Shown: positions 11,255 to 45,399 of the stretch, piece by piece
Position numbering within the stretch: position 1 is the first letter of the stretch
How the letters are laid out: each line of letters starts with the position of its first letter
Assembly (NCBI GenBank): GCA_012523635.1
Contig: JAAYTX010000083.1
Span: forward strand, 1-53,303
Direction of reading: 5' to 3'
Source of the DNA: Elusimicrobiota bacterium
GTDB taxonomy: Bacteria; Elusimicrobiota; Elusimicrobia; Elusimicrobiales; Elusimicrobiaceae
DNA: 53,303 nt
Notes under the pieces: generated by a model
Databases searched by the model: none
Seen by the model: only the letters and a program-made list of their open reading frames with translations
Told to the model about the DNA's origin: nothing
Position numbers and translations under genes: made by a program

Positions 11255-11728
11255 TCATCTCGCCGCCGTGGAGGCGCGTTTTATTATGCCGGTCGTGGAG
11301 CGCCCTTTCAATAATTTAAGCAGAGCCACGCGCCCGGCGTACTCCCGTCCGGCCACCTGCTCAGGCCTGTAATCCGCGCCCTTCACAAGAACGTCCGGCC
11401 TGAGTTCCGCCAGCAATTCAGCGGGCGTAGGTTCGCCGAAAACCACCACACGGTCCACGGAAGCCAGCCCTGACAGCACAAGCGCCCTGTCCTTCTGGCA
11501 GTTTACCGGGCGGCTAGGCCCCTTCAGGCGCCTCACCGAAGCGTCCGAATTAAGCCCGACCACCAGGACATCACCCAGGCTGCGTGCCTTGTCCAGCAAA
11601 AGCACGTGCCCTGCATGCAAAATATCGAAACAACCGTTGGTGAACACCACTTTTTTCCCGTCCCTGGCCATCGCGCGGCGCCAACGCGCCGCCGCAGCGC
11701 GGGAGAGAAGCTTTCCGCTCAGGCGCAC
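11255..11728 (-). CDS. rfaE2: RfaE2/HldE-type heptose-1-phosphate adenylyltransferase (nucleotidyltransferase fold)
   Basis: VVFTNGCFDILHAGHVLLLDKARSLGD...LVKGADY. Confidence 0.87.
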   Translation of the reverse strand: MRLSGKLLSRAAAARWRRAMARDGKKVVFTNGCFDILHAGHVLLLDKARSLGDVLVVGLNSDASVRRLKGPSRPVNCQKDRALVLSGLASVDRVVVFGEPTPAELLAELRPDVLVKGADYRPEQVAGREYAGRVALLKLLKGRSTTGIIKRASTAAR

Positions 11729-13101
11729 GGCGCGGCTTCCTTCTGCGCGGGCTGCGGAGCCTCAGTCATGCGCAGCAGCGTGCCTGTATCCGCGCGGCCG
11801 GCAATGAAGTCCTTATTTTCCAGTATCTTCAGATGGAACGGAATTGTGGTGTTGATGCCGGAAACCTGGAATTCGGACAGGGCGCGGCGGCTCCTGGCCA
11901 GCGCCGAGTTCCTGTCGGGGGCCCAGACGATGAGCTTGGCTATAAGGCTGTCGTAATAGCTGGGTATGGTGTAACCGGCATAGACATGGCTGTCCAGCCT
12001 GATGCCGGGTCCGCCGGGCGGGGTCCAGGACAGGACCGTACCCGGAGAAGGCGCGAAATTGGCGTCCGGGTTTTCGGCGTTTATGCGGTGCTCTATGCAG
12101 TGGCCGTTGACCTCAAGAGTGCTCTCACCCTTACGGCTAAGCGCTCCGCCCTGCGCAATAAGCAGCTGCTCGCGCACCAGGTCCATGCCGGTGACCAGTT
12201 CCGTCACCGGGTGCTCGACCTGAAGCCGCGTATTTACTTCCATAAAGTAGAACTCGTCTTCCTGGGTCATCAGGAACTCGACAGTGCCGACCCCGCAATA
12301 ACCAGAGGCTTTCACCAGCTTAATCGCAGAGGCCGCAAGCCTTTGGCGCAGGGCCTTGTTGACGCCCGGAGAAGGAGATTCCTCCACCAGCTTCTGGTGG
12401 CGGCGCTGCATGCTGCAGTCGCGCTCCGGGAAGGCGGCCACATTGCCGTGCGAATCGGCCGCAAACTGTATTTCCACATGGCGGGGCCTTTCCACGTAAC
12501 GCTCGAAATAGACGCTGTCGTCGCCGAAGCCCGCCTTGGCCTCTGACTGGGCCATATGCATCTGGTGCATCAGTTCACCCTCGGAACGCGCTATGCGCAT
12601 GCCCTTTCCGCCGCCCCCGGCTGCGGCTTTTATCATTATCGGATAGCCTACGGCCTGGGCGGCCTTTTCAAAATCCTTGCTGACAAGGCCCTTGGAACCG
12701 GGAGTCACCGGCACTCCGCTTCTTATTGCCAGTTCGCGTGCCGTGGATTTATAGCCCAGGGACTGTATGGCCGAAGGCGGCGGGCCTATAAAGACTATTC
12801 CCGCCTCTGAAACGGCCTTGGAAAAGGCGGCGTTTTCCGACAGAAATCCGTAGCCGGGGTGCACCGCGTCTGCGCCGGTGATTTTAGCGGCCGACAGGAT
12901 GGCCGCCTGGTTAAGATAGCTCTGTCCGGCCGGGGCCGGGCCTATGCACACCGCCTCGTCGGCGGCGCTGACATGGGTGGAGGACCTGTCAGCCTCGGAA
13001 TATATGGCGACGGAACGTATGCCCATCTCGCGCAGGGTGCGTATCACGCGCAGCGCAATCTCGCCCCTGTTAGCTATAAGAACTTTCTTGAATTCAGCCA
13101 T
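11719..13101 (-). CDS. accC: Acetyl-CoA carboxylase, biotin carboxylase subunit
   Basis: FKKVLIANRGEIALRVIRTLREMGI...HPGYGFLSENAAF...MEVNTRLQVEHPVTE. Confidence 0.96.
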   Translation of the reverse strand: MAEFKKVLIANRGEIALRVIRTLREMGIRSVAIYSEADRSSTHVSAADEAVCIGPAPAGQSYLNQAAILSAAKITGADAVHPGYGFLSENAAFSKAVSEAGIVFIGPPPSAIQSLGYKSTARELAIRSGVPVTPGSKGLVSKDFEKAAQAVGYPIMIKAAAGGGGKGMRIARSEGELMHQMHMAQSEAKAGFGDDSVYFERYVERPRHVEIQFAADSHGNVAAFPERDCSMQRRHQKLVEESPSPGVNKALRQRLAASAIKLVKASGYCGVGTVEFLMTQEDEFYFMEVNTRLQVEHPVTELVTGMDLVREQLLIAQGGALSRKGESTLEVNGHCIEHRINAENPDANFAPSPGTVLSWTPPGGPGIRLDSHVYAGYTIPSYYDSLIAKLIVWAPDRNSALARSRRALSEFQVSGINTTIPFHLKILENKDFIAGRADTGTLLRMTEAPQPAQKEAAPCA

Positions 13102-34114: not shown

Positions 34115-34927
34115 ATGCACAAGCAACACTGGAGCCTTAAAAGCCTTCCTTTTGAAAACACTCCCGACCCGGACTTTTTCTTCGAGTCCGAGGAGCACGC
34201 GGAGGCCGTTTCCCGCATGGGCTACGTCCTGCAGTCGCACAAGGTGTGCGGCGTGCTCACGGGCGTGTACGGCTGCGGGAAAACACTCGTCATGCACTCT
34301 CTGCGCAGGCGCTTTGAACAAGAAGGATACAAGTTCGCGCTGGTCACCAACCCCCGTTTGAGCGAGGTGGACATACTGCGCATGATACTCTACGGGCTGT
34401 CCAGCTCGGAAATCCCCACGCAGAAAGGCGACATACTGATGTGCCTGCAGAAGACCATCACGGAAATAAACAACGACGGCAAGCACCCGGTTATAGTGAT
34501 AGACGAGGCGCACGCCATAGAGAACAACATGGTGTTCGAGGAGCTGCGCCTGCTGCTCAATTTCCAGACCGACAACCGTGTCCTGGTAACGCTGCTGCTT
34601 TCCGGCCAGCCGGAACTCAAGGGAAAGCTGGAATCCAACAAGCAGTTCAACCAGCGCGTCAGCATGAAATATTACCTCGGCCCGTTCAACCAGGAAGACA
34701 CTGTCCGCTACATACAGCACAGGCTTTCCGCGGCGGGCGCCAAAAACCAGATTTTCACCGATGAGGCGCTGGAGGCGGTCTTCCAGCGTTCCGGCGGCAT
34801 ACCGCGCTGGATAAACAACATCTGCCACATGGCCATGATGGCGGCCTTCTCGGCCGACCAGAAACTGGTAACCCCGGAAATGGTGAAGGAAGCGGTGGAA
34901 ACGCTGGACGGCACCCCGGTTGCCTGA
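34115..34927 (+). CDS. ExeA/GspA-like AAA+ ATPase
   Basis: LTGVYGCGKTLVMHSLRRR (Walker A), PVIVIDEAHAIEN (Walker B). Confidence 0.88.
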   Translation: MHKQHWSLKSLPFENTPDPDFFFESEEHAEAVSRMGYVLQSHKVCGVLTGVYGCGKTLVMHSLRRRFEQEGYKFALVTNPRLSEVDILRMILYGLSSSEIPTQKGDILMCLQKTITEINNDGKHPVIVIDEAHAIENNMVFEELRLLLNFQTDNRVLVTLLLSGQPELKGKLESNKQFNQRVSMKYYLGPFNQEDTVRYIQHRLSAAGAKNQIFTDEALEAVFQRSGGIPRWINNICHMAMMAAFSADQKLVTPEMVKEAVETLDGTPVA

Positions 34928-34931
34928 ACAC

Positions 34932-35567
34932 ATGAAAAGCAACCGCACCATACTGGCGATAGGCGCCCACCCGGACGACCTTGAATTCGGCTGCGGAGGC
35001 CTGCTCCGCCTTCTGACAAAGCGCGGATGGAGCGCCCACCTGCTGGTGATGACCGGCGGGGAACAGGGCGGCAGCGCGCCGGTGCGCAGGCACGAGCAGG
35101 AGCACAGCGCGGACTTCATGCGCGCCGAATTGCACTGGGGCGGCTTCAACGACACTGAACTGCCGCCGGACAGAACGCTTATCAAGACCATAGACAGACA
35201 TGTGCAGGCCATAAAGCCGGACATCCTGCTCTCACACTACTGGGACGACACGCACCAGGACCACCGTGCGGTGGCCCAAGCCGCCATAACCGCAGGCCGC
35301 CATCTGCAAAATATGCTTTTCTACGAAGGCCCCAGCACGCTCAATTTCAAGCCCGGCATCTATGCGGACATCAGTTCCGCAATCAACGACAAGCTTAAGC
35401 TGCTGAAACTGCATGCCAGCCAGGTCAACAAAACCCGCGTCCCGCACCTGTCCATACTGGAAAGCGCCAAAAGCGTGGCAATCTACCGCGGCAACCAGAA
35501 CAAGTGCAAGTACGCCGAAGCGTTCCAGACGGGACGCCTTTCGCTGGACTTTCTCGTCGGCCTCTGA
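34932..35567 (+). CDS. PIG-L/LmbE-like deacetylase
   Basis: ILAIGAHPDDLEFGCGGLLRLL...HYWDDTHQDHRAVAQAA. Confidence 0.93.
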   Translation: MKSNRTILAIGAHPDDLEFGCGGLLRLLTKRGWSAHLLVMTGGEQGGSAPVRRHEQEHSADFMRAELHWGGFNDTELPPDRTLIKTIDRHVQAIKPDILLSHYWDDTHQDHRAVAQAAITAGRHLQNMLFYEGPSTLNFKPGIYADISSAINDKLKLLKLHASQVNKTRVPHLSILESAKSVAIYRGNQNKCKYAEAFQTGRLSLDFLVGL

Positions 35568-35570
35568 GAC

Positions 35571-36746
35571 ATGAGCGCACGCCTTCCACGCAGGTATTGG
35601 CTGTTTTCCATAATATGCCTGTGCATTCTCCTGCCGCTGATGCCAAAGGGCGGCATTTCCGCGCTAAGCTGGGAAACAGGACTGCGCTGGCTCTACCTTT
35701 TCCTCATCGCGTTCTTCACCACAGTCATTTCTTCGCCGCTTATAATAAAGCTGGCGCACAGATATGATTTGCTGGACCGTCCCGACGCCCGTAAAATGCA
35801 CAAAACGCCAATACCGCGCATCGGCGGCGCGGCGATGTTTCTGGCCGTCTGGCTGGTGTTCCTGCGCAACATGGTGTTTTCAACAGAACTCTGCGGGATA
35901 ATGGCCGGCAGCTCAGTGGTGTTCATCCTGGGAATGCTGGACAACCTGCTGGGCCTTTCCTCGCTTACCCGCCTTTTCTGGCAGATTGCAGGCTCGCTGA
36001 TTGTGGTGATTTCCGGCGTACGCTTTGACTTCCCGATGCACTGGCCTGGCGGCTTCTATATTTCCGCAGTGCTCAGCGTGTTGTGGCTGGTGGGCATTAT
36101 AAACGCCTTCAATTTTATGGACGGGATAGACGGCCTTGCCGCAGGCCTTGGAACCGCGTCCTCGCTGATACTCATGGCCGTTGGGATATGGACTGGCCAG
36201 CGGGACCTGGTGTTCCTGGCCGCTTCGCTAAGCGGGGCCTGCCTTGGCTTCCTGCTCTATAACTGGCACCCGGCTGTCATGTTCATGGGCGACGGCGGCA
36301 GCACCTGGCTGGGCTTTCTGCTGGGGGCCTGTTCGCTGTGGCACGGCTGGGCCACCAATAAGCCGCTGGTATCATTCGGCGCACCGCTGATACTGCTTGG
36401 CATACCGATATTCGACATAATTTATATAACCGTTTCGCGAATACGGCGCGGAGTGGTGCGCTCGGTGCGCCAATGGCTGGACCATGTGGACAAGGACCAT
36501 TTCCACCACCGTCTTCTTAAGCTGGGATTCACAATAGAGCAGGCCGTGGCCTTTCTTGTCCTGCTCAACATCTGCATGGGCATAAACGCGCTGGTGCTGG
36601 TGCGGGTTCAGTCCAACTTCACCGCAGCGCTGATGGTGCTGCAAAGCACGCTGCTTTTCATCATAGTGGCGCTGGTCATGATACGCCGCCAGGACGATTG
36701 CGTCAGCCTCGAAGCTCCGTCAAAGACTTCAGAAACCCCAAAATAA
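35571..36746 (+). CDS. Undecaprenyl-phosphate glycosyl-1-phosphate transferase (WecA/TagO, MraY family)
   Basis: DRPDARKMHKTPIPRIGG...NAFNFMDGIDGLAAGLG...FMGDGGSTWLGFLLG...HFHHRLLKLG. Confidence 0.93.
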   Translation: MSARLPRRYWLFSIICLCILLPLMPKGGISALSWETGLRWLYLFLIAFFTTVISSPLIIKLAHRYDLLDRPDARKMHKTPIPRIGGAAMFLAVWLVFLRNMVFSTELCGIMAGSSVVFILGMLDNLLGLSSLTRLFWQIAGSLIVVISGVRFDFPMHWPGGFYISAVLSVLWLVGIINAFNFMDGIDGLAAGLGTASSLILMAVGIWTGQRDLVFLAASLSGACLGFLLYNWHPAVMFMGDGGSTWLGFLLGACSLWHGWATNKPLVSFGAPLILLGIPIFDIIYITVSRIRRGVVRSVRQWLDHVDKDHFHHRLLKLGFTIEQAVAFLVLLNICMGINALVLVRVQSNFTAALMVLQSTLLFIIVALVMIRRQDDCVSLEAPSKTSETPK

Positions 36747-37584
36747 GACCCAGCGGACGCGACAGCCTCCGCCACAGAGTAAACGGCTCGCCCCTGGCCT
36801 CAAAAAATTCCCGGCCGGGGAAAATCCTGCGCGGCAGATTGGCCGGAGACAGCACCGCGGGCAACAGATACTGAAGCGTTCTGGACGGGTCGGAGCGACG
36901 GGCCGCCGCAAAAAAAATCCTTTCCTTAACACCGCCTGCGGCGCGCGCGCCGGAGACCCTTTCCAATTCCAACCGCCGCATTGCGGCGCCGAACGGGGCC
37001 GCAAGCCCAAGACGCAGGGCCAGCACTCGCGCCGCCTCCCAGTCGGCGGCAAAATGCCGCGCAATGCCGCGGGCATCGTTCACCGCCTGCCCAGGCAGAC
37101 AGCCGTTGTGAAGCAGCGGATTAAGCAACGCTATCAACAACAGCCATTCCGCGGACGGAGACATGAATTTTACTTCCCCCCAGAAAACTTCACTGGCGCT
37201 TTCCCAAAGCAGTGAAACGGCAAGCCCGGCATCCGGCGCGAACTCAAAAGGCGCGGTATGGATATCTATTGCGGGCAGGCACAAAACGCCCTCAGGCCCC
37301 GACATCACAAAATCATTTGACCCGCCGCGCGTACGTTCGTATCCCAACTCAGGCAGCAAGGCCGCAAAGCGCTGCGCGTCGCCTGCTTTAACCAGCAGGT
37401 CCAAATCGCAGAATTCGCGTTCGCCCGGCTGGTAGACTCCCACAGCGCACAAAAGCGCCCCCTTTATAGGCATGACGGATATACCGGCTTTTGCGGCGGC
37501 CGACAGAACGTCTTCCAGCGCGCGCAGCAATACGGCGTTCCGGGCGCCGGTAAGATAAACGTTTGCCGCGGCAGTCTGTGTCAT
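36703..37584 (-). CDS. RiPP-associated nucleotidyltransferase-fold protein (NTP_transf_5-like)
   Basis: ISVMPIKGALLCAVGVYQPGEREFCDLDLLVKAGDAQRFAALLPELGYE. Confidence 0.82.
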   Translation of the reverse strand: MTQTAAANVYLTGARNAVLLRALEDVLSAAAKAGISVMPIKGALLCAVGVYQPGEREFCDLDLLVKAGDAQRFAALLPELGYERTRGGSNDFVMSGPEGVLCLPAIDIHTAPFEFAPDAGLAVSLLWESASEVFWGEVKFMSPSAEWLLLIALLNPLLHNGCLPGQAVNDARGIARHFAADWEAARVLALRLGLAAPFGAAMRRLELERVSGARAAGGVKERIFFAAARRSDPSRTLQYLLPAVLSPANLPRRIFPGREFFEARGEPFTLWRRLSRPLGLILGFLKSLTELRG

Positions 37585-39254
37585 CGGTTTGCGGATAGAG
37601 CCTGTTCAGGAGAAAGACCGGAGCGAACCCCGCCCATGCCGTCGAATATGCAGGCCGCGTCGGCCATAAGCGCCGACTGGGGCCTGTGGGCCGCTGAAAT
37701 TATGGCAAGCCCCGGATACTCGCGCCGCACGGCATCCAGAATCAGCCTTTCGCTTGCCATATCAAGCGATGAGAGGGCCTCATCCAGCAACAACAGGGCG
37801 GGACGCGTTAGCAGAGCTCTGGCTATCGCAAGGCGCTGTTTCTGCCCGCGCGAAAGCGTCGCGGCGTTGTGCCCAAGCGGCGTATCCATGCCCTGCGGCA
37901 AGCTGTCCGAGAATTCTTTCAGACCGACAACCGACAGCACAGCATCCAGTTCCTCAGGGGCCGCCTTGGGGCTGGCAAAAAGCAGGTTATTGCGCACAGT
38001 ATCGTTCCAAAAATAGCTTTCCTGCGGGGCCACGCCGATGTTGGGGCGCGGCCCGGACACTCCGGCGCCGTCTATTTCAACACTTCCGCTTTGCGGGCTG
38101 TAAAGTCCAAGCAACAGATTGAACACCGTGGTTTTCCCGCAGCCCGATGGCCCCAGCAACACTGTATGTTTTCCGGCTTCAACGGAAAATGACGCCCCGT
38201 TCAAAACCTGTTTACCGTCAGCATAGGCAAATGAAACCGACTTGAACTCTACTGCTCCGGCCCGCACAGGGACCGGCTGCGTACCCGTCTCAGTCGGGGA
38301 ACTGAAAATATCCTCAAGCCTGCGGCAGGAAAGCAGGCCAAGGGCTAGATCCGGCACAGCCTCCGCCGCCTGCGCCGCCAGCGAATTAAGCTGCATGATA
38401 TAAATGGCCAGCGCGGCCAGCGCACCAAATGACAAAAGGCCCTGCCGCATCAGAAACAGGGCGTAGAAAATGAACAAAGCCGCGCCGAGCAAAGCGGCAA
38501 GGCGCGAAGCCATGCCCAGCCATGACGACACCCTGAGACCGGCTATTTCCATGCGCAGCGCCGCAGTCAGGCGGCCGCAGAAACGGCGCAAGGCCGCCTT
38601 CTCCCTGCCCATGGCCTTAACCAGGTATGTCCCGGCAAACAGTTCCTCGGAAAGAGAATAGAAATTCTGCGCGCTATCTATCAGGCTTTCCCAGGTATCC
38701 AGCATTTTCTTTTTAAGGAAATGCTGCGGCAACAGCATAAGCGGCAGCAAAATCACAGCCAGAAGGGCCAGTTGCGGATTCAGCTTCAGCATTATGCCTA
38801 TGGTCAGCAGAACCCGCAGGGCGATATAGGGAATCTGCGCGGCAGTTTCCGTCATGAAAGAAGAAACCCTGTCCACATCCTGGGTGGCCTGATAAAAACT
38901 CTCGCCCGGGCTTTTGCGCGCGCTGACGGAAAGCGGACGGCGGTAGAGGCTTGCGAAAGTTTTGACCGACAGGGACAACTGTAGTTTTGACGTCACGCCC
39001 TTCATGGCCAAGGTCTTGCCCACAGCGGCCAGCTCCGCAAACAGGAATAATGCCCCCAAAGCCGCCACATACCGGTAAAACAACGCCGAGAATTCGCCGC
39101 GCCCGGCCATGTCAACGAGCATTCCGGTTAGATAAGGCTTGCCAAGCTCAAGCAGCATAAGGGCAACGGCCAGAAAACCGGCTCTAGCCAGCATGGGTAT
39201 GGACGGCTTGAGCAGGCTGAAAAACGAGCGCAACAGCCGCAACTGCGTCTTCAT
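37581..39254 (-). CDS. ABC exporter (fused TMD-NBD, no C39 peptidase domain)
   Basis: HTVLLGPSGCGKTTVFNLLLGLYSPQSG; LSRGQKQRLAIARALLTRPALLLLDEALSSLD; start set at MKTQLRL (4-bp overlap with upstream gene). Confidence 0.93.
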   Translation of the reverse strand: MKTQLRLLRSFFSLLKPSIPMLARAGFLAVALMLLELGKPYLTGMLVDMAGRGEFSALFYRYVAALGALFLFAELAAVGKTLAMKGVTSKLQLSLSVKTFASLYRRPLSVSARKSPGESFYQATQDVDRVSSFMTETAAQIPYIALRVLLTIGIMLKLNPQLALLAVILLPLMLLPQHFLKKKMLDTWESLIDSAQNFYSLSEELFAGTYLVKAMGREKAALRRFCGRLTAALRMEIAGLRVSSWLGMASRLAALLGAALFIFYALFLMRQGLLSFGALAALAIYIMQLNSLAAQAAEAVPDLALGLLSCRRLEDIFSSPTETGTQPVPVRAGAVEFKSVSFAYADGKQVLNGASFSVEAGKHTVLLGPSGCGKTTVFNLLLGLYSPQSGSVEIDGAGVSGPRPNIGVAPQESYFWNDTVRNNLLFASPKAAPEELDAVLSVVGLKEFSDSLPQGMDTPLGHNAATLSRGQKQRLAIARALLTRPALLLLDEALSSLDMASERLILDAVRREYPGLAIISAAHRPQSALMADAACIFDGMGGVRSGLSPEQALSANR

Positions 39255-40267
39255 CGCACCGCCTCCTGCCATACGCGGCAATAGTAAGGAAGTTCTTTCG
39301 ACGGAGAAGAAACCTCAAGATACGCCTGGCCCGGGCACCAGCCGCAGTTACCGAACCCGGCGCAGGAGCGGCATTTGGACTTGGCGTTGAAGCGGATGGG
39401 GCGCAAAGCCGCCCGCGCCCTGTCCGCCGCGCGGGCAACGCCGTATTTCAAAATACTGTTCCCGGGGTTGCGTATCATGTCGCAAAGAAAAACATCGCCA
39501 TACGCGTCGACCGAAATACCATGCCCGGAAAACACCCCGCAAAAAAACGGCGATGCGGCGCGCGTTGCAGGGGAATGCTTATCAATACTGCCGCCGTAAA
39601 ACGCGGCATATTCCCCGGGCTCAAGCCGCAGACGGCACGGAGCGGTGTCGCCGTCCAGCCGGGCGTTAAGCAGGGCCGAGGCGTCAAGCGGAACCCGAAG
39701 CCGGGATGCAAACTTTTTCAGGGCTGGAAGTTCTTTACTGTTCGAGCGCGTAACCTGCGCTTTCAGCAACAACGGTATTTTTTTGCGCCGCAACAGGCGC
39801 AGGTTTTTCCTGATTTGCGGGAGGCTTCCGTTCACTCCGCTTATTCGGGCATGCAATGCCGGAGATAAGGCATTAAGAGTAACTTCCACCCTGAACGGCG
39901 GCTGTTCCGACAGCAACCGCAGCATTTCAGGCGTAATTCCCAGCGCGTTGCTCATGATGGTTATCAGGAAGCCGCAACGTTTTGCATAGGCGTATATAAC
40001 AGAAAAATCCGGACGGCAAAACGGATCCCCACCGCTAAAGGTCACCCACAATACCCCGGCGGCGCGCATTTTATCCAGCACAGCCAAAACCTGTTCTGTG
40101 GAAAGCTCGCGGCGGAATCCTGAAGGCGTGCTGAAGCAGGCCGTCTGGCAGTGTTCGCAGGAAAGGTTACAGCGGTAGGTAAGCTCGAAATGGCAGACGC
40201 TGTTGCCGGCCGCTTTTTGATTCTTTGCGCGGCTGAGGGAAAAATTGCGGTAGGAACACTGTCTCAT
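39251..40267 (-). CDS. Radical SAM/SPASM protein (RiPP maturase)
   Basis: YRCNLSCEHCQTAC; TFSGGDPFCRPDF; SPASM CRSCAGFGNCGWCPG. Confidence 0.93.
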   Translation of the reverse strand: MRQCSYRNFSLSRAKNQKAAGNSVCHFELTYRCNLSCEHCQTACFSTPSGFRRELSTEQVLAVLDKMRAAGVLWVTFSGGDPFCRPDFSVIYAYAKRCGFLITIMSNALGITPEMLRLLSEQPPFRVEVTLNALSPALHARISGVNGSLPQIRKNLRLLRRKKIPLLLKAQVTRSNSKELPALKKFASRLRVPLDASALLNARLDGDTAPCRLRLEPGEYAAFYGGSIDKHSPATRAASPFFCGVFSGHGISVDAYGDVFLCDMIRNPGNSILKYGVARAADRARAALRPIRFNAKSKCRSCAGFGNCGWCPGQAYLEVSSPSKELPYYCRVWQEAVR

Positions 40268-40270
40268 CTG

Positions 40271-41227
40271 TCAGCGCGGCAAAGCGCGCACGAAACCTAT
40301 CACCTTGCGGTTCTTTACGAAATTCAGCTTGCAGCAGGGCACCCGCGACAGCAGTTCCCCGCCCAAAGCCAGGCAGGAGGACAAAGCCGCCCTGTCCCAC
40401 GACGGCGGGAACAGGCACGGGTACAGATGCCGGAACGCGCTGTCGAATGCCAGAGTTTTACAGGAATTGCGTCGGCCCTTGCCGATAAAAAATATTTTAT
40501 CCAGGCGCGAGGGCTTGTTGTAGGATTTCAGCTGCCCCCCCACCTCTCCGTGCCAGGGAGGGTTATACATCACAAAACCGTTTCCGCGCCTCAACACGAC
40601 CACCCTGTCGTCGTTGAGCATACCTGCCCGGCTGTTCCTGTGCCACAGTTTCGCGGTGGTGCTTTTGCCAGCCCCTGATTTTCCGGCGAAAATATAACCC
40701 CTGCCGTCTGTATCGCGCAGGCCGCAGGCATGCAGCAAGAGGCCCTCGCCGCGCGATGTTATCCTGTAAATCAGCAGAATCTGCAGAAAATCGTAAACGA
40801 TATCAAGCGGATCCCAAACCATCGCCCCGCCGCGTTTGGCCAGCATCACCGCGTCCACACGGCTCAGATCGCCGGAAATTGTCAGCACCTGCTCTTTGTC
40901 CCGGAGAGGGCAGTAAAATACGTGGCGGGAACCTGCGCGGTACAGGCTCCAGTTTTCCTTGCCGTCCTCGGGATGATAAGTGGTGAAGGCCCTGGCGCGG
41001 GGCAGGGGCGGCAGCTTGGCTGCTACAGATACGTTGACCAGCACATCCGGCCGCCGCCCTGACCGCACTGCAAAAGAGGCAAGGCGCTCGTCTTCCGGCC
41101 TGAACGGATTATCCAGAAGGTCGACCGGCTTGAAGAGGCTTTGCATACGCACCAAAGTGCCGCAAATATCAAGGTCCAGGGAATATTTGCCGTTCAGCAG
41201 GCGGAAATTTTTCTTTATACTGTTCAT
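40271..41227 (-). CDS. HPr kinase/PEPCK-fold kinase-like protein of RiPP clusters
   Basis: LLLHACGLRDTDGRGYIFAGKSGAGKSTTAKLW...LNDDRVVVLRRGNGFVMYNPPWHGE; start at MNSIKKN overlaps preceding stop. Confidence 0.85.
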   Translation of the reverse strand: MNSIKKNFRLLNGKYSLDLDICGTLVRMQSLFKPVDLLDNPFRPEDERLASFAVRSGRRPDVLVNVSVAAKLPPLPRARAFTTYHPEDGKENWSLYRAGSRHVFYCPLRDKEQVLTISGDLSRVDAVMLAKRGGAMVWDPLDIVYDFLQILLIYRITSRGEGLLLHACGLRDTDGRGYIFAGKSGAGKSTTAKLWHRNSRAGMLNDDRVVVLRRGNGFVMYNPPWHGEVGGQLKSYNKPSRLDKIFFIGKGRRNSCKTLAFDSAFRHLYPCLFPPSWDRAALSSCLALGGELLSRVPCCKLNFVKNRKVIGFVRALPR

Positions 41228-42084
41228 ATGGCCGGGCAACGCTTCAATAGCGCCCTCTTAAGTTTAGGAGAATCCAGCCTCCGCCACAATGTCTTTAGCG
41301 ACGAGGGCCCTATTTTCCATTTAGGGCCATCCACAGCCACGCAGATTTTAAGCTCTCCGGCGGGAGTTATCGCCGCCTGCACGTCCCCGGCTCCGCAGCG
41401 CGGGCAGGCCGGCGTCCTCGATAAACCGGGCTTCCCGGACAGGATTTCCGCCGGGAGTGGCGTTCCGTCAAGACGCGGTATATGCTCTGTATCCAGCCGC
41501 CACGGCGCGCCGTATTTTCCGGCAAACGCCCTTAACGAGGGCAGTTCCAGCCTGTTGGCTTTCAGCTTGCAGGTTTTAAAACCCAAAGACAGTCCTTCTT
41601 TCCTTAGAATGCCGGCGGCCCCCAGCACGGCCCTATGGGAATCCGGTGCGCCAGTGACCGCTCCGAAAGCCTTTTTGCTCATGGCTGGCAGTGTAATATC
41701 AACTTTGGCACAGCCGCAATTTTTAAGCTTCCGCGCCGTAGCCTGAGTTATCAGCGAAGCGTTGGTATAAAGATAAGTCTGCATACCGCGCCGACGCGCG
41801 TGTTTCAAAATAGTGAAAATGCCTTTTTTCAGCAGCGGCTCCCCGCCGGTGACACCGAGTTGGAGGCAGCCGACGGCGGCCAGTTCGTCTATGATGGCGC
41901 AAAAACGGCGGGCAGTGATTTCCTTTTTACGGTATTGCGCCCTGTAGCCGTGCGGAATATAGCAATGCGGACAATTGAAATTGCAGTCATAAGTAACTTC
42001 CAGCATCACCCTCAACGGAAAGCGGCGCTTTCTGGCCGCGCGCTCCAACCGCGCGCGAAACGCGGAAGAATCCAGCGTCTTCAC
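41224..42084 (-). CDS. Radical SAM protein with short/truncated SPASM region
   Basis: TYDCNFNCPHCYIPHGYR; GVTGGEPLLKKGIF; CPRCGAGDVQAAITPAGELKIC. Confidence 0.92.
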   Translation of the reverse strand: MKTLDSSAFRARLERAARKRRFPLRVMLEVTYDCNFNCPHCYIPHGYRAQYRKKEITARRFCAIIDELAAVGCLQLGVTGGEPLLKKGIFTILKHARRRGMQTYLYTNASLITQATARKLKNCGCAKVDITLPAMSKKAFGAVTGAPDSHRAVLGAAGILRKEGLSLGFKTCKLKANRLELPSLRAFAGKYGAPWRLDTEHIPRLDGTPLPAEILSGKPGLSRTPACPRCGAGDVQAAITPAGELKICVAVDGPKWKIGPSSLKTLWRRLDSPKLKRALLKRCPAI

Positions 42085-43154
42085 TGAGGGACGCCCCCGC
42101 CAGCCGCCTCATGCGCCAGCACGCAGAAGTAAGGCACCGGCGTTTCCTGGTGTCCCATTTCAAGCAGCGCAGCGGCGGGACAGCTGTAGCAGATGCCGCG
42201 CAGATGACAGGTGCCGCAGGGGCTGTCGGTGCAGGTGCTGGCCCGTGCCACCTGCCTGCCCATGGCGCGGAATGCCGGCAATAACGACGCCTTGCCGGCC
42301 TGACGGCTGAATTTTTCAGTAAACATGCAGAACTTCATCCTGCCGCGCGGATTTATGAAAAGCTGGCTGCGCCAGGAATTGCACCGGTAAAGCGCGGTTT
42401 TGCGTCCGCCGACGGGAACGACATCGCTTTTTACGGCGCATTCGTGTTCGGCGCGGGCGTCCCTGTCCTGCGCCAGCATCTCGCGCCGCTGTTCCGGGTA
42501 AAGGCGATATTTGCATGGAGAAGTATCGCCGTCGAGCCGCGGATAAATATTGCAGTCATATGAGAAATTGTAGATATTCTCACGCAAACTGCCGAAATTC
42601 TTCTCCGCCCAGGCTTTCACCCTGCCGAATTCCCTGTAATTGGCGGTCATGCACGGCATTTTAATTGAAATGTTAAGCCCCTGTGCCTTAAGCGCGCGGA
42701 TATTTGACATGGCGCGCTTGAAAGAACCCGGCACGCGCGTTACAGACTCGTAGGCGCGCGGCGCGGCCCCATAAACCGAAATTTCCATTGTGTAAGGCGG
42801 CAGGCTGCGAAACAAGTCAAGATGCGCTTTTGAAATCGGGTAACCGGTAGTAAAGACCGTGACCAGAAATCCCAGTTCCTTTGCCGTGCGGTAAATTTCC
42901 TCGAAATCCCGGCGGGAGACCGCCTCGCCACCGGTAAAGGTAATCCAGAGGCAGCCCGCGCGCTTAAGCCGGACAAGAAGGTTCTTCCACTCCGAGGCCG
43001 AAAGCTCGTCTTTGGGAGACGAGGTATTCTTGCAATAACAATGTACGCAATTAAATGGGCAGCGGTAAGTAAGTTCCAGATACGCCGTCAGCGGCGTGTT
43101 TTTCGCGGAAGACAGCAGCCTGTTTTCGAGTGCAACAACCCCGGCAGTCCTCAT
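42081..43154 (-). CDS. Radical SAM/SPASM protein (RiPP maturase)
   Basis: TYRCPFNCVHCYCKNTSS; TFTGGEAVSRRDF; SPASM CTDSPCGTCHLRGICYSCPAA; start at MRTAGVV, 2 bp after precursor stop. Confidence 0.93.
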   Translation of the reverse strand: MRTAGVVALENRLLSSAKNTPLTAYLELTYRCPFNCVHCYCKNTSSPKDELSASEWKNLLVRLKRAGCLWITFTGGEAVSRRDFEEIYRTAKELGFLVTVFTTGYPISKAHLDLFRSLPPYTMEISVYGAAPRAYESVTRVPGSFKRAMSNIRALKAQGLNISIKMPCMTANYREFGRVKAWAEKNFGSLRENIYNFSYDCNIYPRLDGDTSPCKYRLYPEQRREMLAQDRDARAEHECAVKSDVVPVGGRKTALYRCNSWRSQLFINPRGRMKFCMFTEKFSRQAGKASLLPAFRAMGRQVARASTCTDSPCGTCHLRGICYSCPAAALLEMGHQETPVPYFCVLAHEAAGGGVPQ

Positions 43155-43156
43155 TC

Positions 43157-43375
43157 CTAGCTGACAGAGGAACTGCGCTGCGTGTTGCAATAGTAGGTGC
43201 GCCTGGTGTTCCTGAAGCAGACGTTCGAACGGTTTATCATCATCGGATATCCAGGACCATACCAGTATGGTTCGAAAGCGCGGCGGTTGGTATAGCAGGA
43301 ACAGGCAAGCACAGCCTGCTCCGGGTTGAGCTTTATCCTGGTGATTTCGGGGGTGAACTTGGGCTTGCCTTTCAT
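43157..43375 (-). CDS. Putative RiPP precursor peptide, 72 aa
   Basis: MKGKPKFTPEITRIKLNPEQAVLACSCYTNRRAFEPYWYGPGYPMMINRSNVCFRNTRRTYYCNTQRSSSVS; GAGG-type RBS; sits between PqqD and radical SAM genes. Track ORF 43157..43462 is the same frame extended upstream. Confidence 0.85.
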   Translation of the reverse strand: MKGKPKFTPEITRIKLNPEQAVLACSCYTNRRAFEPYWYGPGYPMMINRSNVCFRNTRRTYYCNTQRSSSVS

Positions 43376-43385
43376 ATGCGGCTCC

Positions 43386-43667
43386 TCACAGGACGGCCTT
43401 GATGTCTTCCAGTTCCTTGCGCAGGGCGGACAGCCTGCCGTCCGCCTGCTTTTCCGTAGCATCGAAATGTTTAAGCAAAATGGCCTTGATGTCGCCCCAG
43501 CTGCGCTTGCCGTCTATCTTGTCCCACACCCAGGCCGCCGGCTGGTTCATGGTATAAATTGAGTTCAAATCCCGCGAATCGCGGAATATGGGAACCAGCA
43601 CGGTTTCTCCGCCTATCTGTCGGCAGACCATGTCCTTGTTCCTGCGCGGGATTTTGGAGTCGCTCAT
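43386..43667 (-). CDS. PqqD-family peptide-recognition (RRE) protein
   Basis: VLVPIFRDSRDLNSIYTMNQPAAWVWDKIDGKRSWGDIKAILLKHFD. Confidence 0.92.
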   Translation of the reverse strand: MSDSKIPRRNKDMVCRQIGGETVLVPIFRDSRDLNSIYTMNQPAAWVWDKIDGKRSWGDIKAILLKHFDATEKQADGRLSALRKELEDIKAVL

Positions 43668-45001
43668 GCTTTGCCCCGTCTGAAAAGGCCGTCATTAATT
43701 ATAGCCCCGCGGATATGCCGCGCGCAAGCGCGCATTGAGGCTTCAATACTGCGGGAAGCCAGCCCCAATTGCAGGGCGGCGCGATAGCAGGAAAGGGCAA
43801 AAGCCCAGCGGCGCTGCCTTTTAGCCGTTTCACCGGCGTAATAATAGGCGTGCGGACGCAGCGGCTCCGCACCGAGCAATATGGAGAAAACCATGGCGGC
43901 TTCAGCCAGCCTGCCGGACTCTAGGCAAGCCTGCCCCAGCACCTGCAGCGCGTCGGCCCTGATGCCTTTAAAACGCCCGCGCGCGGAGAGAACAGCCGCC
44001 TTGCGCAGAAAATTGATTGCCGCGTTCAATTGATGGCGCCGGAAAGCGACATGTCCCAGCCCCGACAACGCCTGCGGATTCTCGGGGTCAGCCGCCAGCA
44101 CTTTTGCGAACTCCATTTCAGCCTTTTTAAGCCGCCCGGTTTGCAGGTAGAGCATGCCGTAGGAATTATCTGGGCCGCGGTATGCCGATACCAGCCCGGC
44201 CGCTTTCCAGTACGAGTCTTTCCCGCCTTTCTCAAGGAAAGCGCCGAAATGCCGCGACGCGGACAGGCTGCGCCTGTATCTCTCCCCGAAACGGCGCGGG
44301 GACATAAGAAAAGCCAATTCGTCGGCCAGATGGCGAAAACGCATGGGGGTGAAGCCGCCGTTGGTGGAATAGGCGATTGTAACCATCGCCGGAGCGCGCA
44401 CGGACTTTTTAAGAGAGACAAATAATTTTTCCGGAGGGCAGGACACCGCCCTGCGTCCGATAACTGAAGTATTTTCGGCGTTGCGCAGGCTGTCGGCAGT
44501 CATGAAATCTGCGTCTATATCAAGCAGCGCCCCGCCTAGGCGGGGCAGGGTATCCAGAGTGCAGACCCGAAATTCTCTGCCGCGGAAGCGGCAACACGCA
44601 CCTTCACCGGAAAAAACCGGGCGGACGCCGGAGCCCAGCGAAGAAAGCAAAATCTTTTCAAGCAGGGGCCTGTCGCGCCGCAGCTCTTCGCCGGTGCCGG
44701 GCACCACCCAGTAAACGCCGCTTACGATGCCCTCTTCCAGGGCGGGATATATATAGTTGCCGATATCCGTCTGCCGCGAAAAATCGGCGGAGTAACGCAG
44801 GAAAGCCAGCGACGCTTCCAGCCCGCGCTTCAATTCCTCAACGCTGCGCGCGGATGACACCGCGGTGAACGGACGCTCCGCGGAAGGCACACGGAAATCA
44901 ATATGCGCGTCAACATGTACAAGAGGCAGCCCGCGCAGGCCGCGCTTGCGCCATAGCTTCAGGGCCTGATCGTGATCCTCTATAAGTTTTATTTCCATCA
45001 T
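43664..45001 (-). CDS. UPF0489 (arginase/deacetylase-fold) domain fused to TPR repeats; candidate peptide arginase
   Basis: LVHVDAHIDFRVP and LLDIDADFMTA metal-ligand-type motifs; C-terminal TPRs (AEMEFAKVLAADPENPQALSGLGHVAFRRHQLNAAINFLRKA). Confidence 0.75.
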   Translation of the reverse strand: MMEIKLIEDHDQALKLWRKRGLRGLPLVHVDAHIDFRVPSAERPFTAVSSARSVEELKRGLEASLAFLRYSADFSRQTDIGNYIYPALEEGIVSGVYWVVPGTGEELRRDRPLLEKILLSSLGSGVRPVFSGEGACCRFRGREFRVCTLDTLPRLGGALLDIDADFMTADSLRNAENTSVIGRRAVSCPPEKLFVSLKKSVRAPAMVTIAYSTNGGFTPMRFRHLADELAFLMSPRRFGERYRRSLSASRHFGAFLEKGGKDSYWKAAGLVSAYRGPDNSYGMLYLQTGRLKKAEMEFAKVLAADPENPQALSGLGHVAFRRHQLNAAINFLRKAAVLSARGRFKGIRADALQVLGQACLESGRLAEAAMVFSILLGAEPLRPHAYYYAGETAKRQRRWAFALSCYRAALQLGLASRSIEASMRACARHIRGAIINDGLFRRGKA

Positions 45002-45399
45002 CTTCCCAAAAGCCGTGCGGCAAACCGGCGCAAGCCCATAAGCGCCGGGAAAAGGTAAATGGCCAGCCGCGAAATAACGCGCTGCGGAAATGTCTCAAGC
45101 GAAACTGCCCCGCCAGACTTTATCACGGACGACACCTTGCCCAGGCAGGCTTGAAAAGGCACGCGGTCCGGCTGGGAAAAAGAGGCGTCGCCCCGCAGGA
45201 GGAGACAAAGGCTGCCTCCGGTGCTGTCCAGCCCTATTACGCGGTGGCATACTTTCCGCCCGTCAATTTCGGCAAGCACTATGTCGCCGACTCGCAGCTC
45301 GCCTGCGGAAACCCGGCGCAACACCAGCCTGTCCCCGCGGCGGAGCATGGGCTCCATGCTGTAGCCGTCTGCCTCGAACAGTGAAAGATTATCTTGCAT
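44998..45399 (-). CDS. S24/S26-like peptidase, Ser/His (ER/SipW-type) signal peptidase-like
   Basis: DGYSMEPMLRRGDRLVLRRV...RVGDIVLAEIDGRKVCHRVIGLD...LLRGDASFSQPD. Confidence 0.8.
   Translation of the reverse strand: MQDNLSLFEADGYSMEPMLRRGDRLVLRRVSAGELRVGDIVLAEIDGRKVCHRVIGLDSTGGSLCLLLRGDASFSQPDRVPFQACLGKVSSVIKSGGAVSLETFPQRVISRLAIYLFPALMGLRRFAARLLGR

Follow-up and report, generated by a model that had tools for sequence, protein, structure and literature searches.

The window analysed here, a stretch of 53,303 nucleotides, is an entire contig (C182, JAAYTX010000083.1) of an Elusimicrobiota genome (GCA_012523635.1; 2.35 Mb, 94% complete). Its minus strand carries an open reading frame (ORF) of 72 codons, with an ATG at 43375 and a TAG ending at 43157, which is single-copy in the genome and is predicted to encode the precursor of a ribosomally synthesized and post-translationally modified peptide (RiPP). 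Around it, ten co-directional genes, mostly overlapping or abutting, form an operon in the order S24/S26-like peptidase, UPF0489 arginase domain fused to tetratricopeptide repeats (TPR), PqqD, precursor, radical SAM enzymes 1 and 2, HPr-kinase-like (HprK-like) protein, radical SAM enzyme 3, ABC exporter and NTP_transf_5 protein. The core of the peptide, counted from C25, has Cys at positions 25, 27, 53 and 63, seven Arg, no Lys and nine aromatic residues, and is the richest in Arg among 28 cores of its type. A preliminary description of the locus had reported four Cys, seven Arg, no Lys and many aromatics, as our recount also gives, and its sequence and translation match the DNA save for a misplaced hyphen in the peptide as quoted. 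It had further placed the start at 43375 instead of 43462. This start is preceded by GAGGAG, 7 nt ahead of the ATG and within the end of pqqD, and every homologous leader begins at the same Met; a 101-residue reading from 43462 was rejected, since it would pass through pqqD and has no counterpart among the homologs.

The assignment of the precursor to a PqqD/radical SAM system, also made in the preliminary description, was borne out: many genomes have homologous precursors whose neighbours include PqqD and radical SAM genes. The check proposed there, a search for motif-bearing small ORFs next to radical SAM genes followed by alignment of their cores, returned homologs whose cores are hypervariable. 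When ten precursors are aligned, identity is 71% in the leader and 8% in the core, and PEQAVL, C25 and C27 are invariant. The leader consensus is KxF.PxITRxKLNPEQAVLxCxC, and the core features that recur are CxC[Y/W], three or more Cys and a C-terminal Ser or Thr. A conserved leader followed by a variable core (71% vs 8%) beside a cassette of maturases is the pattern of a RiPP precursor; judged from these alignments, the 72-residue ORF is real, its start is correct and it is a RiPP precursor. No family in Pfam or NCBIfam covers these precursors.

The distribution of the family was examined with several queries. Using the HprK-like protein against 341 genomes of the phylum, two close relatives were identified, in G229 (53%) and G233 (45%). 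Both genomes have the cassette and a homologous precursor, with the G229 cassette split across two contig ends; the G229 precursor was matched at E=1.1e-12 by a two-sequence query profile that does not contain the G229 locus. In Omnitrophota, a ten-sequence profile reached E-values down to 7.6e-30, where the profile includes some of the matched loci, and down to 1.8e-19 for loci outside it. At a threshold of E<=1e-6, at least 26 genomes of an even sample of 384 Omnitrophota have a precursor match. No precursor or arginase homolog was found in the 100 closest genomes searched; the weak precursor matches there are chance-like, as most contain stops or span part of the core only. The arginase-TPR profile, run against the genome collection, matched 25 loci. 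Most are in Omnitrophota and the others in Nitrospirae, Aminicenantes and Gottesmanbacteria, and many have PqqD, radical SAM, HprK-like and precursor genes; related arginase/radical SAM/HprK clusters are present in Nitrospirae and Aminicenantes. Several precursors per genome are common among the genomes with these loci (ten matches in G344, eight in G342 and seven in G348). The usual cassette in complete loci is PqqD, precursor, radical SAM 1, radical SAM 2, HprK, radical SAM 3 and ABC exporter, with the arginase optional.

Table 1. Predicted genes and features of the precursor operon, with positions in the window and the evidence for each assignment.
Feature	Position	Strand	Evidence
Precursor peptide A, 72 aa (leader M1-A24, core about C25-S72)	43157..43375	minus	Homologous leaders, hypervariable cores
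Leader MKGKPKFTPEITRIKLNPEQAVLA	43304..43375	minus	Mean identity 71% over 10 precursors; leader/core boundary approximate
Core CSCYTNRRAFEPYWYGPGYPMMINRSNVCFRNTRRTYYCNTQRSSSVS: 7 Arg, 4 Cys, final residue Ser72 (43160-43162)	43160..43303	minus	Composition
S24/S26-like peptidase (archaeal/SipW-type signal peptidase relative), candidate leader peptidase	44998..45399	minus	PF00717 E=2e-6, above gathering; TIGR02228 E=1e-11, below cut-off
Putative peptide-arginase (UPF0489) domain, about residues 1-235, fused to TPR repeats	43664..45001	minus	PF12640 E=4e-9
PqqD-like RiPP recognition protein, 93 aa	43386..43667	minus	PF05402 E=2e-8, above gathering; identity 55% in L063, 47% in L059
Radical SAM enzyme 1 (CPFNCVHC), 7-Cys SPASM-like C-terminus, ATG 43154	42081..43154	minus	PF04055 E=1e-18; Cys spacing
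Radical SAM enzyme 2 (CNFNCPHC), short partial C-terminal Cys domain	41224..42084	minus	PF04055 E=1.5e-17
HPr-kinase-like P-loop protein (H170, G-x4-GKS, NDDR), candidate C-terminal Ser kinase	40271..41239	minus	ScmC 6e-5 and HprK_rel_B 1e-4, both below cut-off; AlphaFold2 (AF2) model; conserved motif
Radical SAM enzyme 3 (CNLSCEHC), SPASM-type Cys motif	39251..40267	minus	PF04055 E=2e-20
ABC exporter (transmembrane domain and ATPase)	37581..39281	minus	PF00664, PF00005
NTP_transf_5 nucleotidyltransferase-like protein, candidate phospho-Ser tailoring enzyme	36703..37584	minus	PF14907 E=1e-20; identity 42% in L058

Other forms of precursor were also observed. In G344, an Omnitrophota genome (L158, L172-L177), at least seven NPEMAV-type precursors are spread over scattered contigs, and each core has a single Arg, in C-R-[QE], and no Lys. 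A third type, TACRS...CxxCRxTYxxS (L079:7839, L083:12598, L085:12679, L086:12679, L090:10794, L091:11252), has cores with about 24 Arg per 100 residues and an arginase nearby. Approximately 30 Elusimicrobiota genomes (L093-L129, for example the L113:4441 region and L119:10453) encode a different, Lys-rich precursor, KKKxYxKPxxKTEKVFETAALACGKCxTGPxxQLACKxLKKFS, which lies close to an HprK-like gene and, in most cases, a single SPASM radical SAM gene, with no arginase nearby and Ser always last. The 1.4-Mb Omnitrophota genome G559 (L217) has 15 precursor matches, and those that were read have SCC, not CxC, after PEQAVL. Truncated precursor copies with an intact or nearly intact leader and an early stop in or before the core stand beside full ones (L070:7976, L168:2576, L169), which suggests a turnover of core genes.

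The CxxxCxxC motif is kept in all three radical SAM proteins of the operon. The 7-Cys spacing of SPASM type is present in enzymes 1 and 3 and partial in enzyme 2, with the Pfam SPASM model itself below its cut-off, and none of the three reached a curated equivalog cut-off among the NCBIfam models listed (PQQ, mycofactocin, SCIFF and other named radical SAM enzymes). Since each precursor type has three or more Cys in the core, a constancy not shared by aromatics, thioether links from Cys are the first guess for the product, with about an even chance of being right. The segment FEPYWYGPGYP and the N/R pairs, named in the preliminary description as plausible cross-linking sites, are not conserved in the hypervariable cores and stay speculation. 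The idea, from the same source, that the enzymes form C-C or C-O links of cyclophane type at aromatics is ranked second and appears rather unlikely; the Cys would then be disulfides or metal-binding. It would fit the nine aromatics of the window core, the average of 12 aromatics per 100 residues in PEQAVL cores and the Y or W that follows CxC in most members; on the other hand, Met is possible at position 28, as in L072, and precursors of the remaining types in these clusters are nearly without aromatics, yet have at least three Cys.

The C-terminal residue of the precursors is almost constant. Among 53 precursors from HprK clusters, 50 end in Ser, two in Thr and one in Gly, compared with 6% Ser-ended proteins among the other cluster proteins; for 56 PEQAVL-type precursors, a set that overlaps the former, the counts are 49 Ser, six Thr and one Gly. 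The terminal Ser/Thr spans four precursor types (PEQAVL, NPEMAV, TACRS and the Lys-rich FETAALACGKC), and an HprK-like kinase is common to their clusters. The HprK-like protein has the His, the P-loop Lys and the Asp-Asp motif, and its AF2 model matches the PEPCK/HPr kinase superfamily, with Foldseek TM-scores of only about 0.4. In lasso peptide clusters, a conserved Ser at the C-terminus receives phosphate from the HprK-type kinase PadeK, and a hexose is added there by PsmN, whose annotation is nucleotidyltransferase (reviewed in PMC9266682). By analogy with these clusters, Ser72 may be phosphorylated, a link between kinase and C-terminal Ser that the preliminary description had not made. Alternatively, the kinase could act on another protein or have a regulatory function, while the terminal Ser/Thr serves export or recognition. 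The weak similarity to HprK and the first rank of PEPCK in Foldseek agree with such a role, but we regard it as doubtful: the terminal Ser/Thr occurs in four precursor types whose clusters have this kinase, and phosphorylation of the peptide fits the demonstrated chemistry of PadeK, ThcoK and PsmK (PMC9266682).

The N-terminal domain of the TPR protein passes the gathering score of PF12640 (37.5 bits vs 27, E=4e-9) and misses the NF052474 pept_arginase (FlmR/OhkR) cut-off (29 bits vs 350, E=7e-7); by its profile scores it is of the same superfamily as FlmR/OhkR, not of that subfamily. Searched against the PDB as a single sequence, the domain matched the peptide arginase OspR (8brp, E=4.5e-4), which was the sole match of the arginase profile (E=4.3e-12). 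The metal ligands of OspR are H12, D39, H41, D43, D165 and D167 (PMC10028609). The equivalent residues of the window protein, H9, D30, H32, D34, D162 and D164, are invariant across 21 aligned homologs, and all six Mn ligands of the motifs ExH, DxHxD and LDIDxD are kept. Peptide arginases turn peptidyl Arg into ornithine (PMC12703449). The structure model of the arginase-TPR protein has a pLDDT of 91; Foldseek returned only TPR proteins for it, the repeats dominating the search. An apparent arginase fusion in L090 and L091 (frames of approximately 950-990 residues) was set aside, as it is probably open frame upstream of an internal Met.

Core arginine follows the presence of this domain. Within the 53 HprK-cluster precursors, the core R/(R+K) is 0.825 with the arginase (about 0.55 expected from the operon proteins, z=6) and 0.14 without it, and the leaders that go with the former cores are rich in Lys (0.21). 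The domain was absent genome-wide in all six arginase-negative genomes tested. Restricting the comparison to the PEQAVL family, where it is least confounded by leader type, the core ratio is 0.70 with the arginase (n=39) vs 0.42 without (n=17; Fisher p=4e-4), and Arg-free cores number 1 of 39 vs 5 of 17. Leader composition is alike in both groups (68 Arg and 152 Lys vs 32 and 65). Across the 384 Omnitrophota, 12 of the 26 precursor genomes have the arginase vs 17 of the 358 others (odds ratio 17, p=1.5e-8). Relatedness among the sequences and incompleteness of the genomes mean that these p-values overstate independence, and the comparisons are supports, not proofs. Based on the relationship to OspR, the kept metal ligands and the Arg enrichment in cores but not in leaders, the core arginines probably become ornithines, and the peptide arginase of the operon explains them better than a role in cross-linking, the one function that the preliminary description had considered for them. 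It is improbable that the arginines stay unconverted, with the UPF0489-TPR protein as a binder or scaffold and the core Arg arising from GC-rich codons, cationic charge or the needs of cross-linking. Arg is common anyway in the operon proteins (background R/(R+K) of 0.65) and TPRs are typical scaffolds, but every metal ligand is invariant, the enrichment follows the arginase within one leader family and is missing from its leaders, and Omnitrophota cores are Arg-rich although the operon proteins there are Lys-rich.

Taken together, we consider it likely that the operon makes a hypervariable RiPP with cross-links, ornithines derived from Arg and a phosphorylated C-terminus. PqqD would bind the leader and hand the core over to the radical SAM/SPASM enzymes, whose most likely products are thioether links from Cys residues. 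The arginase would hydrolyse core Arg, up to seven here, to ornithine, and the HPr-kinase-like enzyme would phosphorylate the C-terminal Ser72, which the NTP_transf_5 protein may further decorate. Removal of the leader by the S26-like peptidase and export by the ABC protein would complete the pathway. Several points weigh against this reading, besides the relatedness of the sequences compared. The system is known here from genes alone, and the cross-link type is a guess. PEPCK ranked first in Foldseek, the P-loop fold is common to PEPCK and HPr kinase, and the HprK assignment leans on weak profile scores (ScmC 6e-5, HprK_rel_B 1e-4), with no curated cut-off reached. The NTP_transf_5 protein went undetected in most Omnitrophota loci with the window query, which makes the decoration of the phosphate a weak step. 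One arginase-positive core has no Arg and about half of the PEQAVL genomes are without the arginase, so that Arg conversion would be an accessory step. That the ORF is no gene, or a decayed remnant, can practically be dismissed: the 100 closest genomes are without a homolog and truncated copies are known elsewhere (L070 7976), but here the leader is full-length, the C-terminal Ser, the ribosome-binding site and the operon are intact, and homologs occur in other genera and phyla, the leader conservation by itself refuting the idea.

On one flank the operon is followed by serine/threonine kinase, RecN-like and NAD-kinase-like ORFs, named by sequence with the kinase alone profiled, and on the other by a WecA-like/PIG-L/ATPase trio. 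Genes for an XrtA-type ATPase, a PIG-L deacetylase and a WecA-like protein are near the cluster in all three Elusimicrobiota (window 34115-36746; L063:2635-5263; L064:2099-4736), adjoining it or at most about 11 kb from its arginase, in differing arrangements. A recent import of the cluster is not marked by G+C content (0.58 vs 0.57-0.61).

The cluster shares features with several described systems. The arginase shares its family with OspR, FlmR and OhkR (pfam12640/UPF0489) by Pfam score, the 8brp match and the motifs DxHxD, ExH and LDIDxD (PMC12703449, PMC10028609), but differs in its C-terminal TPRs and in its partners, three radical SAM enzymes and an HprK-like kinase. The KLNPEQAVL leader is not among the published arginase-associated types, namely NHLP, N11P, SCIFF, SCCRRSCN, DD(I/V)LF and MGXRRSSE (PMC12703449). 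The HprK-like kinase with its His/Lys/Asp-Asp motif and the C-terminal Ser resemble the PadeK/ThcoK/PsmK systems, and the NTP_transf_5 protein of the window genome is a possible counterpart of PsmN (PMC9266682). In contrast to the lasso systems, the operon has radical SAM enzymes, and a lasso peptide was rejected since neither an asparagine-synthetase-like cyclase nor a B protein is present among its ten proteins. With PQQ, sactipeptides and ranthipeptides (including SCIFF) it shares a PqqD-type recognition protein, CxxxCxxC with SPASM-type Cys in radical SAM enzymes 1 and 3 and a Cys-containing core, but it has three different radical SAM enzymes per precursor and reaches none of the listed NCBIfam equivalog cut-offs; identity as a PQQ-like cofactor or SCIFF was considered and rejected. 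Enteropeptins, which are sactipeptides with N-methylornithine, combine radical SAM and arginase logic in one cluster as well, a likeness drawn here at the level of the enzymes, but their arginase KgrD belongs to pfam00491, not pfam12640 (PMC12703449). The G233 cluster also has an extra gene resembling FliB-type Fe-S lysine-N-methylases (NF038110 E=5e-4, below cut-off) and a GT9 glycosyltransferase (L059:9701-10711, 11625-12695); as in enteropeptins, the N-methylase-like protein could N-methylate ornithine.

No description of these clusters was found in the open literature, and mention in subscription papers is possible; a survey of metagenome-assembled genomes from the Cariaco Basin refers to Omnitrophota gene clusters, PqqD and radical SAM in general terms only. 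The common leader and divergent cores point to an undescribed RiPP family spread across several uncultured phyla. Since all of its parts belong to known enzyme families, it would be a variant within RiPPs rather than a new kind. More tentatively, and with slightly less than even confidence, we propose that the clusters represent a RiPP class of their own, found in uncultured bacteria. In it, PqqD and three radical SAM enzymes, guided by the leader, would cross-link near-arbitrary cores, a kinase of HprK type would add phosphate to the C-terminal Ser, and how many ornithines arise would depend on the arginase-TPR fusion, an optional component. The use of an HprK-type kinase would then be, as far as we found, the first RiPP case outside lasso peptides, and it leads to a testable general rule, that such a kinase in a RiPP cluster predicts modification of a C-terminal Ser in any peptide class. 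The natural contrast between loci with and without the arginase within one leader family could isolate the contribution of ornithine to a peptide. The hypervariable cores suggest that the products serve in antagonism or signalling under diversifying selection. The enzymes of the cassette appear to accept nearly unlimited core sequence, and the paralogs with conserved leaders and hypervariable cores, as many as ten or more in a genome, would amount to a natural combinatorial peptide library. If the mechanism holds, radical SAM cross-linking, conversion of Arg to ornithine and C-terminal phosphorylation would be joined in one undescribed family, in phyla almost without characterised natural products.
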